Assembly (NCBI RefSeq): GCF_037975245.1
Contig: NC_092575.1
Location: 4,953,501 to 5,017,500, forward strand
DNA: 64,000 nt
Direction: 5' to 3'
DNA from: Apostichopus japonicus
Lineage: Eukaryota; Echinodermata; Holothuroidea; Aspidochirotida; Stichopodidae
Position numbers and translations under genes: made by a program. This document shows positions 17,971 through 64,000 of the stretch, in pieces. The notes under the pieces are model-generated. The model was given only the letters and a program-made list of their open reading frames with translations, had not been told where the DNA came from and did no database searches. The stretch's first letter is position 1; every line of letters begins with the position of its first letter.

Positions 17971-18118
17971 ACAAGAGATACGTAGACACATACCGTGTTG
18001 TTGTGCAAAACAACACTTGAAATATTACTCCCTGAATCTGATCGCTTTCTTAATTGCACGTCAGACTCTGTACATAATCAAATTCAACCATAAGCCACAT
18101 ATTCCGTATTTGACTTAA

Positions 18119-18465
18119 AGGGTGTGAAGACTTGCGCACAAATAAACGTATCATCTGACCTTGTTTCGAATGAGGTGTAACAGAAGTGTTACACACCACC
18201 AACGATCCCAGAAAATACACACAACTTGCTACCGTCGGTAATTAGACACTGGTGTATGGTCAATAAAATACAGCTACGGTCAATACCCACAACACAGTGT
18301 ACATAGCAGCGTGGACATCTCAGGACGTATAGATAAAATATAACAAGGTATCACGTTTCATTACTGTCTGCATTTTGTAGCGACAAGAAGAAAACGTCAT
18401 TTGCAAGCAACGGATAGTGAATTTTTCAGAGCGCGGCACGCGGTTTGGGCGAGTCTTCATTGCCT
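18119..18465. mobile_element. TTAA-flanked MITE, copy 2 (Kolobok/T2-like)
   Basis: A 347-bp element lies between TTAA at 18115-18118 and TTAA at 18466-18469. It is the inverted homologue of 12625-12988. Its ends read AGGGTGTGAAGACTTGCGC and, inverted, AGGCAATGAAGACTCGCCC. Units B and E lack it at the same place, so it inserted after the units separated. Confidence 0.75.
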
Positions 18466-19449
18466 TTAAACATATTTTATATTCCATAAATTTATTAATC
18501 CATGCTAGGCATGTCGATTTGATGGCATTATGTAATAATATGTAGTCCATATGTTAATGTTTCAATGTATGTTACCTTCATAAAGGCTCAACAGTTTCAC
18601 CCAAACTTGACCAAGTATGCGTTATCCCACATCATTCTGTTCACATGACGAATGAAGTAAAATACCTCATAAGGGAAGAGGAAAATGAGAAACAGAGTCC
18701 AGTGCTTTTACAATAATGTAATGTATTATGCTATACGCTACGGAACGGCTGATTGAAAAAGTGTAGCTCAGAGGAATATTTTTCTCTTAATATTACATTT
18801 CACTTATACTTGCAGGAAGTAGACCCAATATTAGTGAAGAAATAATGATTAAAAAAACCAAAATCAATAATACAACGAACTTTAAAAGGCATATCATATG
18901 TTCATATACATGTTTTTGAAGTTATTGTCATAACGGCACTATGATTATATTAATTTTGGAAAGTATATCGCATGCTTCATACACTATGAAGACAATTGTG
19001 AAAGAAACCCTTTCTTGTTACTTCCTTTGTCAGGATTGTTAGATTCTAGTCAATAGCGTTCATGAAAAAATATATTATGAAGGGTCTATAAAATCCCAAA
19101 CATGAAAAAAGAAAAGATATAGCGGAGTAGAAGTAAACAAGTTTAGCAATAAAACAGGTGTCAGCGTACGTCAATATACATATGAGTTGTATTAATTATT
19201 TTGAATCATTCAAGCTATCAATGCCTATACGCATTTTAATGATCTTTCTTCCCTTTTTGATAGTGCAAAGGCAGATTGCGTGATTGATCACCAGTTCACT
19301 TCGAATGCCCGTGTACGAGTACAAGTCCACGAGGGTTGGGGAAGGGTGTGCCAATGCCAATAGCTATGTCACAATACGAGTAAATGGACGGACTCACTAC
19401 GAATCTGGTACCATGAAATTACGTATTCCCAAGTTCTATTATTATAATA

Positions 19450-20010
19450 TTATCTGTTTCTGCAGTAGCGAAGGATAGTTTTTGGCCGAGACTGAAATTA
19501 CAGAATTATTTCTCAGGTGAAATCTCAGTCGGTTGAGAATACAGACTCCTTTAGAAACTTTGCTGCTCAAATAATAAATGTGATGCTTCCAATTTAAAAT
19601 ATTATCAACGTAAACTCCTAAAAATTTAGCAACATTAGAAAACTTGATATGTTTATAGGTATTATTATATGAAGTCCCTTGTACTTGGATAGGATGGACT
19701 ATTGCGAGTAGAAAACATCACAGGACAGGTCTTTTTAACATTAAGTAAAAGCTTGTTAGCCTTGTTTAAGAGTAACAGTTATATAGACAATGGGTCAGGC
19801 ACAGAACAGAACAGGTTAGCGTTGTCAGAATAAAGATTCACTGAGATCCTATCCTTTAAACGATGCTGGTAGTTTTCGTAAAGTAAAGAAATTGACAAAG
19901 GAGAAGATAGGATTTAAAGTTTAAGATTTACAAAAACAATTTAAAATGCTGTTTGGTCTGAAGTTAGAAATCATATGACGATCATCACTTTTTTTGCACA
20001 GTCAGCCCTC
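19450..20010 (-). mobile_element. LINE relic (CR1/L2-like reverse transcriptase tail), unit A
   Basis: Minus-strand frames, broken by stops and frameshifts, give SDNANLFCSVPDPLSI, NKLLLNVKKTCPVMFSTRN and YFKLEASH. These are pieces of the palm and thumb region of a non-LTR reverse transcriptase. The same relic lies at the same distance upstream of copies B, C and E. It cannot be active. Confidence 0.75.
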
Positions 20011-20298
20011 TTACAATTTTAATTTTTTCTTGGAAGGGTATGAAACTTGTCTCATGCAAGTATAAAAAGCAATAACTGAGTAGCTTTGCAATATTAATAA
20101 TAATATTTTTACGATATTTGGAGAGATGTTTTCATAGCCGGGTGAACACGTCGTGATTGGAAACCATTCAATGTGTAAAGTTTACTCGTTGGCTTGGAAA
20201 CTGCTGGTCGTTATCATTCACAAATATTGGTTTCATTATTGCGTCTTGCCATTTCTTATTTTCAGCTCTTTGCTGCTAGTGCTCAAAGATTATCCAGT

Positions 20299-60960: not shown

Positions 60961-61089
60961 GAGGGGCGGGGGGGGGGGGGTTCAAATACCAATAGCTATG
61001 TCACAATGCGAATGAGGGCACGGACTCACTACGAATCTGGTACCATGCAATTGTGTAATCCCAAGTTCTATCATTTTAATATTATCTCA

Positions 61090-61985
61090 TCATTTTCAAG
61101 ATCTATAATGTAAAGCATACATTTTGGTGTATATAGGTCTAACAAACCGAACATTACATCTCGCCTATCCTCACAGTGTCATACTTTGAAGAAAAAAAGT
61201 ATCTGAGTAAGAACTGTCTGAGAAAACAAACTTCCCCCTCCCCCTCCACTATGTATCCACACGGGAACAGGCTACAGTTGACTATAAAACAAATAAGGTG
61301 GGAGAAAGACAGGAAAGCATATGAATACTTACTAGACAACAAAAGAGCTTTGTGACAAGTATTAAAGTTAGCAATGGTATGTGTAGACTTGAGACGGTCA
61401 CTTAAAGCTAAAATCCCATATATAAGGACAGATACAATGCTGAGTGGCATTTAAACGATTTAAAGGAATGCTAGGAGAGGACCAAGAACAGTCTCCGGGG
61501 CCCGTCACAGACAACACTATATTTATCTTTGAAGCGTGCTTATTGGGCACTACGTACTGATTACAATTGATAAGGGAATTTATAAACCATTCGTTAGTAG
61601 CCCTCTTACCCAAATATGTATCAAACTTAAAAAGTAGAAAACTATGATCCAAGGTGTCCAACGCCTTCGAGAGATAAGGAAGATGGCTTTGACAAAATGA
61701 CCTTTTTCGAAAGCGGATGAAAGAGTTTTGGTGTACAAAAGGAGAGCTTGAGAAGTAAGAATACCAAACTGGCCATTGAATAATAAGATCGGATTTTTGA
61801 AGAAATTGAAACAAAAAGGATACGATGCATAATTTAAGATAGAAAAAACGAGATAAAATGTTGTTCGGACTGTATTTAGAAATAATATGACGATTACCTC
61901 TCTTGTGCCACAGGAACAACTCTTGCAATTTAGTCTAGGAAGGATATCAACCTTGACTGTGGCAACTATTAAAAACAATAACTTA
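61090..61985 (-). mobile_element. LINE relic (CR1/L2-like reverse transcriptase), unit E
   Basis: Minus-strand frames give KTLSSAFEKGHFVKAIF, LSKALDTLDHSFLLFKFD, ATNEWFINSLINCNQYVV and KINIVLSVTGPGDCSW, which are consecutive reverse transcriptase segments in several frames. It is the same element in the same place as in units A, B and C. Confidence 0.78.
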
Positions 61986-62199
61986 GTGACTTGGCAATAT
62001 AAAAGCTGACATTTTTCACGATACGTGGAGCGATATTGTCACAGCCGGTGAACACGTTGATTTGGAAACATTCAGTGTATAAAGTTTGGTTTGGTTTGGA
62101 AACTGCTGAAGTTATCATATTTAAATGTCATCATCATTATTGCTTCTTGCCATTTCTTTCATTCAGATCTTTGCTGCGTGTGCTGATTGATTATCCAGT

Positions 62200-63720
62200 A
62201 TGGAATCAGGACAACTGTTCGTGTATTTCATTCTCGTGTTGAGTTTTTCAGTCGAAATTGAATCACTGCCTAGTAAGTCACTTTAAAGTAATATTGAAAA
62301 TCATCATTAAGGGTTTTCTTCTTTTTCTTCCACTAGCTGTATCAGTAATTCAAAAGAAGCAGTATTCGTATCTCAATGTGTTTTTAAAGAGTATTTTTGT
62401 TCGGTACTTTAGTAAAACTATTTTATAAGTAAATCTGTATGTCAGAACGTGAAATGATGGAAGAAAGTCGTTAAAGTGTTATAAAAACTGCTTCTCCCAA
62501 AACATTATATAACGGAGATACATTTACAACAAGAAAAGGTTTGATAGAGAGTATATATAGCAGGCTGATCCTAATCAAACTAATATAGTACGAAAATTGA
62601 CTTAAGGATTAATTTCAAGTACCCAGGATATTTCAAGCACTCAATACTACAACAGCTTATTATGTAGTTTTTACTTTCATGTGTATTTAAAAATCTTGAA
62701 AAGAAAATATTTTATGAAGGCACGACTGTACATCAATTATTTGTTTCTTTGATGTCATACAAATCTGTCGAATGATTTGTTTTATTGATATCGCTCAAAA
62801 TTTATAAATTAAACCACTCATTTAAATTTAAAGTACCCTTTGAATACAAAACGTTTTTATATTATGGAACTTGTCAGAAAAGTGTAGTTTTCATGTTTTT
62901 AGTTAGTTGGTCATACACATATTTAATTCCTCATTCCAACCAGGTTTGACATAGTTTATCTATGATGGTGTGTTATCCGAAACATTTAAACACAACGGAA
63001 ATAATAAAGGGATTTTCATTTCTATTTTCAGGTTTATGTGACTTTGAAACTCAATATCTAAACTCTTTGAGAGAAGGTAAATGACATCCTGTAATGTATA
63101 GTCTATATATTTCTTTCATCACTCATGACGTTCTTAAGCTAAATTGTGCTCAAACGCAGGTAGAATGAAATAATTCAACCGAATTGATGCATTTGCCATA
63201 CTCTTGATCAGTATTTATCTATGTAATGGACACCGATTAATGCAACGAAATTTAGAAAATTTCACGATCAATCATGGTAGTTTCCACTCTAAAAAATTTG
63301 TTTATTTCGAGTTTTCATTTTCACACAAAACATATGTAAAACCTTCCCTTTTTTGCGTCGAATGTGCCCATTTATTTTGTTATCATTTGACGGTTAAGAA
63401 ATAAAAAGACCCTCTAAACTACAACCTGTTATTAAGCACTAACACGAAAAAATCAACAGACATAATTTTGTTTTTAAAATTCAAAATGAAGTTATTGTAC
63501 AAAGTTTGCAGTTCTTCATTTGAATAAATTGCAGTTCTATTGCAATAAATTGTTAATTACCTGGCAATTAGAAGCAGATACATATTATGGAATTAACAAC
63601 ATAGATGGTTAATAGTCTTTGAGATCCATGATTTTAATATCTTTTCAGATGTGAGGAGAGATGTGGCAATATCATCTACTGAGAAAAGCGAGACGACTTC
63701 TGCACTTATCACTACACCAG
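62200..63720 (+). CDS. Fibrinogen-related protein E, exons 1-3 (rest beyond window)
   Basis: Exons 62200-62272, 63032-63076 and 63649-63720 join in phase. Exon 1 encodes a signal peptide (MESGQLFVYFILVLSFSVEI). The donor used by A and B has mutated (GT to CT), but a strong GTAAGT lies three bases downstream and keeps the phase. Exon 2 is the 45-nt form (LCDFETQYLNSLRE) shared with copy C. Exon 3 encodes the Thr/Ser-rich stalk ([16 protein letters not shown]). Exons 4-7 would be to the right. No disabling change is visible, so it may be a third working gene. The pyrimidine tract and AG at 62165-62166 are kept. Confidence 0.8.
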
Positions 63721-64000
63721 GTATAAATTAATGATTAACATTGGTTTATTTATATTTAGCTCATATCAGGTGAATACATGCTATATGTCTTACACTGGTA
63801 CAAAAACACATTAATTATCAATAATTTTAATTCTTGTTAGCAGGTAGTCTATTGTTTGCTCACACACAATAATGTTGTTTATCCTTTGTGCAACAAATCA
63901 TTTATTAGACAAAATAATGTATTTTGTCTACTTTCATTGTATGGTAATTTAGTATCTCGAAGCTTATTTTCGTCTCCCCTATCCGAACACGTTACAGATA

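Follow-up and report, generated by a model that had tools for sequence, protein, structure and literature searches.

Does a local array of genes for secreted fibrinogen-domain proteins in the sea cucumber Apostichopus japonicus serve as an inherited recognition repertoire? The array lies in a 64-kb stretch of contig C15 (the window; C15:4953501-5017500, in a genome of 671,581,487 bases on 35 contigs), and a preliminary description of that stretch had proposed a birth-and-death array of recognition-type proteins. We conclude that the locus probably is such an array of secreted FREP-type proteins, that it belongs to a very large family, and that this family probably acts as an inherited repertoire for recognition. 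Among the sequence features, recognition is best supported by one absent from the preliminary description, namely the rebuilt and variable pocket loops encoded by the last exon.

The genes and their last exon

Self-comparison of the window (self-blastn) recovered the repeat units A, B, D, C and E, which confirmed that the local gene array is real. A tblastn search with A and B found no further copies in the window (remaining matches, E >= 0.4). Genes A and B have the same six-exon structure (73/72/209/303/262/263 nt), and in splice-consistent models both are open and encode 393 amino acids, not the 405 residues given previously. The splice signals and phases were consistent across the six-exon gene, the exception being a GC donor after exon 2 of B, which was also found in copy F to the right of the window. 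In both proteins, a signal-peptide-like start (judged by eye) is followed by a Ser/Thr-rich linker, a TIL domain, a TILa-like piece, an EGF domain and the fibrinogen domain (FReD).

The domains were assigned by Pfam scans of gene A, including four of its exon frames, and of gene B; the scan for other genes covered a further 20 of the 71 frames of at least 80 amino acids in the window. The C-terminal fibrinogen-like domain matched PF00147 (Fibrinogen_C) with E 6e-53 in an early joined model of A (347 amino acids) and 2e-52 in B. EGF_3 reached 30 bits when exon 4 was scanned by itself (cut-off, 28.5) but 27.8 in the joined model of A and 25.4 in B. The TIL domain reached 28 bits (cut-off, 24.5) only when residues 49-147 were scanned alone, and scans of the exon-3 frame, of the joined A model and of full-length B gave no TIL match; TILa, at 22-24 bits, was under its cut-off of 27. 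The stalk aligned with the repeated TIL-TILa modules of a single PDB protein, FCGBP (3 distinct sequences, E <= 0.01), and the best PDB match of the FReD was tenascin-R.

Seven of the C15 copies have the last exon, exon 6 (A, B, C, E, F, G and H), and in every one of them both cysteines of the second conserved FReD disulfide (NCA...WWYxxC) were absent. The same cysteines are present in the five solved proteins aligned (tenascin-R, ficolin-1, ficolin-2, ANGPTL6 and FIBCD1), and loci L037-L040 and L042 of the same genome keep them. In FIBCD1, this disulfide (Cys401-Cys414, equivalent to Cys206-Cys219 of TL5A) connects the S1 acetyl pocket, which is built from Tyr405, His415, Tyr431, Trp443 and Ala432, with the calcium site (PMC3908420).

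Four loops, bordered by the conserved anchors DND, xWWY, LN, W and EMK, were mapped by hand on the FIBCD1 alignment and correspond to the loops that surround the S1 ligand pocket of FIBCD1 and TL5A. Loop 1 takes in Cys401 and Tyr405 of FIBCD1, loop 2 Cys414 and His415, loop 3 Tyr431 and Ala432, and loop 4 Trp443. By this mapping, the pocket residues Tyr405, His415, Tyr431-Ala432 and Trp443 are replaced by Leu, Thr, an absent segment and Pro in A, and by Phe, Ala, an absent segment and Tyr in B; TL5A and the ficolins also have Tyr at the last site. Loop 1 of A is longer than that of tenascin-R, ANGPTL6 and the ficolins by about 8 residues, and loop 2 by 3. A calcium-site-like motif, recognized as a sequence motif only, is kept as DNDND in A, B, E, F and H and as DNVND in C and G. 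While DNDND, GGWWY and LNSPYG are invariant among A, B, E, F and H, the loops differ, and loops 1 and 2 vary more than any other part of the exon: between exons 6 of A and B, loops 1 and 2 are identical at 6 of 26 positions and the remainder at 50 of 60.

We also found that the last exon can be exchanged between copies. At the sites where A and E differ, B agrees for the most part with A between 42.6 kb and exon 4, and for the most part with E from about 46.0 kb onward. The A-B and B-E differences are 7.2% versus 19.5% in intron 3, 21.7% versus 8.3% in the second half of intron 5, and 25.2% versus 6.2% in the 3' flank. Since B switches from matching A to matching E, it is, as judged from these sites, a recombinant of an A-like body with an E-like last exon, the switch lying at or near exon 5. 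Faster evolution alone was rejected as the source of the A-B divergence in exon 6, since exons 1-4 of B are A-type and its exon 6 is E-type. Copy F is also a mosaic, with a B-like 5' flank, a mixed stretch from exon 1 to intron 2, and an A-like remainder from about exon 3. An (AT)47 run occupies 46504-46597 in intron 5 of B, directly 3' of the switch.

Loop variation in the wider family

The family is much larger than the array in the window and, among the matches listed, lies mostly on contig C9. The genome holds at least 169 FReD matches (150 of 2,731 candidates scored) and at least 150 matches to the TIL exon of gene A (from 529 candidates). When TIL and exon-6 matches on C9 were paired on the same strand within 4.5 kb, at least 50 of the 131 exon-6 matches listed had a TIL exon upstream, all at 2.7-3.4 kb, and none had one of the 128 listed TIL matches downstream. 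The architecture had been suspected of being rare, but in this genome it is common. That FREPs are expanded in A. japonicus was known before: they are described as the most expanded family of the genome, as occurring in clusters, one scaffold bearing 21 copies in tandem, and as up-regulated in regeneration (PMC5638244).

TIL exons were found upstream of the gene groups C9_18.0, C9_18.6, C9_19.4 and C9_15.6. None was found near group C9_22 among the matches listed; these genes may lack the TIL exon, carry a diverged one, or have one outside the matches listed. A full EGF domain is present in the C15 genes, L070 (C9_19.4), L071 (C9_18.6) and L040, and the EGF segment is shortened in L072 (C2) and L073 (C9_29).

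Exon 6 was read in 65 genes of seven groups, picked from matches near the queries rather than at random and limited to open frames. Left out were L084, L089, L093 and L139 (disrupted or partial frames), L138 (cut at the sequence edge), L094, L095, L097 and L099 (no exon 6 recognized), and L100 (one in-frame stop), which was not grouped. L079 and L122 are the same gene; L122 was kept out of the 65 and of the variability test and is still in the loop-composition and nearest-pair counts. L098 and L142, also one gene, were counted once as L142. The cysteine pair was absent in 41 of the 65 genes (C15, 5; C2/C9_29, 3; C9_18.0, 18; C9_19.4, 15) and present in 24 (C9_15.6, 2; C9_18.6, 7; C9_22, 15), and no gene among the 65 had only one of the two. 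Because it is common to 41 genes, the loss of the disulfide marks subgroups rather than exclusion from the FReD fold. Other loop cysteines occur in some genes without the pair, for example in loop 2 of 17 of the 18 C9_18.0 genes, so that other disulfides are possible.

Loop 1 has 11 to 22 residues and loop 2 has 7 to 12, with in-frame length variation in the C9 relatives, where whole-codon changes are less telling against relaxed constraint because only open frames were counted. The loops of the C9 relatives are rich in Tyr, Ser, Asn and Asp and contain runs of TAT codons; Tyr makes up 24-41% of loops 1 and 2 in four C9 groups versus 7% in C15. The Tyr codons of the non-C15 genes are 358 TAT to 39 TAC in the loops and 48 to 83 in the framework (p=8e-33). 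Codons at most one base from TAT account for 54-71% of the loops and 13-19% of the framework in the four larger C9 groups, against a base-composition expectation of 22%. L088 and L090 carry (TAT)6 and (TAT)8, respectively, and differ otherwise at 2 of 231 sites outside the repeat. These results point to codon-repeat slippage as one probable source of loop variation on C9. TAT repeats as a trait of the window's own array were dropped, the C15 loops having 2 TAT and 8 TAC codons and a longest codon run of 2. In five genes at C9:18.6 Mb (L087, L088, L090, L091 and L101), loop 1 contains a poly-Tyr insert with a cysteine of an additional pair on either side, reminiscent of the ultralong bovine complementarity-determining region H3.

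We then compared nonsynonymous and synonymous differences, counted by the Nei-Gojobori method (NG86). Between A and E, the nonsynonymous:synonymous counts were 32:20 in exons 3-5 versus 44:6 in exon 6 (p=0.003); between A and B, they were 26:17 versus 41:7 (p=0.009). Since B is a mosaic, the A-B contrast between exons mixes divergence times, and the count ratios, the A-E comparison and the loop/framework contrasts are therefore preferred. Nonsynonymous divergence of the loops between A and B was 27/64 versus 182/822 in intron 5 (p=6e-4). Together these counts suggested diversifying selection on the C15 loops. In the wider family, the columns of loops 1 and 2 were more variable than the framework in all five groups tested (p 4e-7 to 5e-3; the two groups of 2 and 3 genes were left out). 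Among nearest pairs in four C9 groups, the ratio of nonsynonymous to synonymous rates (dN/dS) was 0.18-0.36 in the framework and 0.65-1.10 in loops 1 and 2.

Outside this genome, 6 and 28 pattern matches in viral contigs gave no confirmed relative. A prokaryote scan gave 36 bacterial or archaeal FReD-like loci, the best being L001, a FReD-like protein on a contig of a Myxococcota metagenome-assembled genome with 38% identity (best segment) over query residues 59-271 (E 3e-37).

Extent of the array and other features of the window

In the flanking sequence compared, the array continues for about 76 kb to the right of the window with copies F, G and H (Table 1). Searches of the 50 kb left of the window and of the right-hand sequence from 5095.3 kb to 5117.5 kb found no copy. 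Unit E is complete and open once its exons beyond the window are included. The earlier assignment of A, B and E as intact and of C and D as broken stood, with the correction that C and D are each just half a gene. Similar copies form the pairs A/F, C/G and E/H, and E and H differ by 0-3.2% in every gene part compared. Intact, frameshifted and fragment copies, these pairs and the mosaics B and F support the proposal of birth-and-death evolution.

One reading of the origin of D and C is a single copy split by inversion. The two fragments adjoin and complement each other, but inverted D-like exon 1/2 pieces also come after E and after H, and the C-like piece G has no D-like piece detected beside it. 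In the 90-bp block around exon 2, D is 89-92% identical to A, B and E. A tRNA-Tyr-like sequence with the anticodon ATA, perhaps a tRNA pseudogene or the head of a short interspersed nuclear element, lies at the D/C junction (52979-53051, plus strand), and D contains a reverse transcriptase-like remnant recognized by weak similarity (50762-51013).

Table 1. Units, genes and exons of the array (positions in the window unless given as C15 coordinates)
Feature	Position	Strand	Basis
Repeat unit A (gene A with flanks)	17966..25902	+	self-blastn to 40433-48707 and to partial units
Gene A exon 1, start codon and signal-peptide-like sequence	20299..20371	+	splice-consistent model; signal peptide by eye
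Gene A exon 2, Ser/Thr-rich linker, phase 1-1	21276..21347	+	model; inside 90-bp block shared with D
Gene A exon 3, TIL domain	21971..22179	+	PF01826, 28 bits vs cut-off 24.5, isolated segment only
Gene A exon 4, TILa-like piece, EGF domain, FReD start	22876..23178	+	EGF_3, Fibrinogen_C; FCGBP TIL-TILa alignment
Gene A exon 5, central FReD	23385..23646	+	PF00147, E 1e-29 on frame containing the exon
Gene A exon 6, C-terminal FReD, calcium-site-like motif, pocket loops, both conserved Cys absent	24485..24747	+	alignments, model
Gene A loop 1, residues 327-345, 6/19 identical to B	24544..24600	+	alignment
Gene A loop 2 variable part, residues 351-357, 0/7 identical to B	24616..24636	+	alignment
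Repeat unit B	40433..48707	+	self-blastn
Gene B, exons 42918-42990, 43910-43981 (GC donor), 44589-44797, 45453-45755, 45963-46224, 47161-47423; 393 amino acids; mosaic, switch about 45.8-46.2 kb	42918..47423	+	splice-consistent model, site comparison
Fragment D, inverted 5' half; exon 1 50194-50120, exon 2 frameshifted near 48983-48919	48919..52961	-	self-comparison, reading of unit boundaries
Fragment C, 3' half; exon 5 with one-base deletion, exon 6 of a third type common to C and G	53701..55849	+	self-comparison, alignment
Unit E, 5' part; exon 1 62200-62272, exon 2 63649-63720; exons 3-6 beyond the window at C15:5017784-5020437	59725..64000	+	splice-consistent model, flanking sequence
F, A-like, frameshift in exon 5	C15:5070505-5074930		
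G, C-like fragment	C15:5080272-5081861		
H, E-like, open	C15:5088961-5093620		

Other features of the window include an unrelated neighbor gene, a frame at 9919-10275 (minus strand) matching glycolipid transfer protein (GLTP; E 6e-11). A reverse transcriptase fragment (RVT_1, E 2e-15) at 56628-57104 (minus strand) is a remnant of a long interspersed nuclear element between C and E. Further reverse transcriptase-like remnants were seen by eye upstream of exon 1 in B (42313-42711, minus strand) and in E (61401-61934, minus strand; without a Pfam match), and B has an insert at 42189-42508 that is not present in A. A 497-bp tandem duplication, 98% identical, lies at 15963-16955, and a large inverted repeat at 28832-30360 has arms that are 91% identical, with a satellite of about 145 bp in both orientations.

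The proposed recognition repertoire and alternatives

As the preliminary description had held, the domain order is unlike that of ficolins, tenascins and molluscan FREPs; the Pfam scans agree. Ficolins have a collagen-like region before the FReD; in A and B there was no Pfam match to collagen, and no Gly-X-Y run was seen in the sequence. Tenascins carry EGF repeats and FNIII repeats before the FReD, whereas A and B have one EGF domain and no FNIII match in the Pfam scans. FCGBP has repeated TIL-TILa modules with which the stalk aligns, but no vWD or C8 domain was matched in A or B. The sea urchin SpTransformer (185/333) genes, in the portions of their literature consulted, are likewise an echinoderm immune gene family with diverse members, but SpTransformer is a protein unrelated to the TIL-EGF-FReD family.

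The molluscan FREPs are, like the present proteins, secreted, multigene and diversified FReD proteins. In Biomphalaria they combine IgSF domains with the FReD (PMC7588048), and their diversity arises from duplication and from allelic and somatic change (PMC13428168). The proteins here are instead TIL-EGF-FReD and differ from one gene copy to another in the FReD pocket, and the IgSF domain, one or two of which precede the FReD in molluscan FREPs, had no match in A or B in the Pfam scans. The lectins FIBCD1, techylectin-5A and the ficolins (PMC3908420, PMC10825690) share the FReD by sequence, the calcium-site-like DNDND and the GGWWY core; here, by contrast, the Cys401-Cys414 pair, Tyr405 and His415 are replaced, and the Tyr431-Ala432 segment is 7 residues shorter. 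The published FREP expansion is similar in being of the same species, expanded, clustered and tandem. In its main text, TIL and EGF occur 0 times as whole words, and the parts examined mention neither disulfide loss nor loop diversification (PMC5638244). No description of the TIL-EGF-FReD architecture, the loss of the FReD disulfide or the Tyr-codon-repeat pocket loops was found in the open-access literature, covered mostly by titles and the beginnings of abstracts.

If the array is a recognition repertoire, its proteins would be secreted into coelomic fluid or mucus, and the conserved cysteine-rich stalk (TIL, TILa-like piece and EGF) would be an assembly or tethering module. The differing loops would bind different microbial or self surface ligands. 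Exchange between copies has joined the body of one type to the last exon of another in B. We infer an immune function for the family; support from the literature is indirect, in that a holothurian FREP is induced by lipopolysaccharide in Holothuria glaberrima (PMC2702171).

Several results weigh against a recognition repertoire. The B and E loops are identical at 25 of 26 positions, and C15 has just three last-exon types (A/F, B/E/H and C/G), so that the pairwise contrasts within C15 are not independent. Loops 3 and 4 were more variable than the framework in just three of the five groups and not in the other two, and their nearest-pair dN/dS was 0.42-0.51 in three of the four C9 groups and 2.02 in one. 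Over all nucleotides, the loops of A and B have diverged to a degree that falls in the range found for 78-base windows of introns (with the loop borders displaced by one codon). The nonsynonymous excess within exon 6 alone was not significant (A-E, p=0.23; loops only, p=0.07), so positive selection in C15 was dropped as a proven point. FREPs of A. japonicus are also tied to regeneration (PMC5638244).

A more specific form of the repertoire is an antibody-like germline system, which we put forward tentatively as a possibility. One FReD scaffold would carry pocket loops acting as complementarity-determining regions. On C9, slippage of TAT repeats would change loop length by whole codons, and the one-base variants AAT, GAT, CAT, TCT and TGT would supply, together with TAT itself, the Tyr, Asn, Asp, His, Ser and Cys of the loops. 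Recombination would exchange last exons between bodies, as in B, and the loops would have become free to vary once the pocket disulfide was lost.

Because the excess inside exon 6 is not significant, relaxed constraint keeps some probability, although we consider it unlikely. Here the copies would be decaying duplicates whose last exon drifts after losing the disulfide and the binding site. The fragments C, D and G, the frameshifted F, the four C9/C2 exon-6 loci with disrupted or partial frames (L084, L089, L093 and L139), an exon-6 dN/dS between types not significantly above 1, and loop divergence inside the intron range all fit such decay. However, A, B, E and H are open throughout, the exon-6 framework is under purifying selection in the four C9 groups, and the motifs DNDND, GGWWY and LNSPYG do not change among A, B, E, F and H although the loops do.

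It is quite unlikely that the family is a non-immune one for regeneration or extracellular-matrix signaling, of tenascin or angiopoietin type. The tenascin-R match of the FReD agrees with that idea, as do the 21 tandem FREPs and the up-regulation of FREPs in visceral regeneration of A. japonicus (PMC5638244). The absence of an FNIII match in the Pfam scans does not, and conserved binding loops would be predicted for a signaling ligand, the opposite of the pattern observed. That the proteins are adhesive or mucus components seems very improbable: FCGBP, a mucin-like protein, gives the only PDB matches of the stalk, and the high Tyr share of the loops in four C9 groups could yield 3,4-dihydroxyphenylalanine, but such use is speculation, the C15 loops are poor in Tyr, and the calcium-site-like motif is retained.

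How broad recognition is achieved without lymphocytes is an open question, to which the inherited repertoire proposed here would offer a concrete and testable echinoderm answer: a lectin-type fold with a conserved framework, pocket loops that vary in sequence and length partly through codon repeats, and bodies and last exons that are recombined. The family also suggests that a FReD can do without a disulfide that all the solved relatives aligned possess, which bears on the evolution of FReD specificity.

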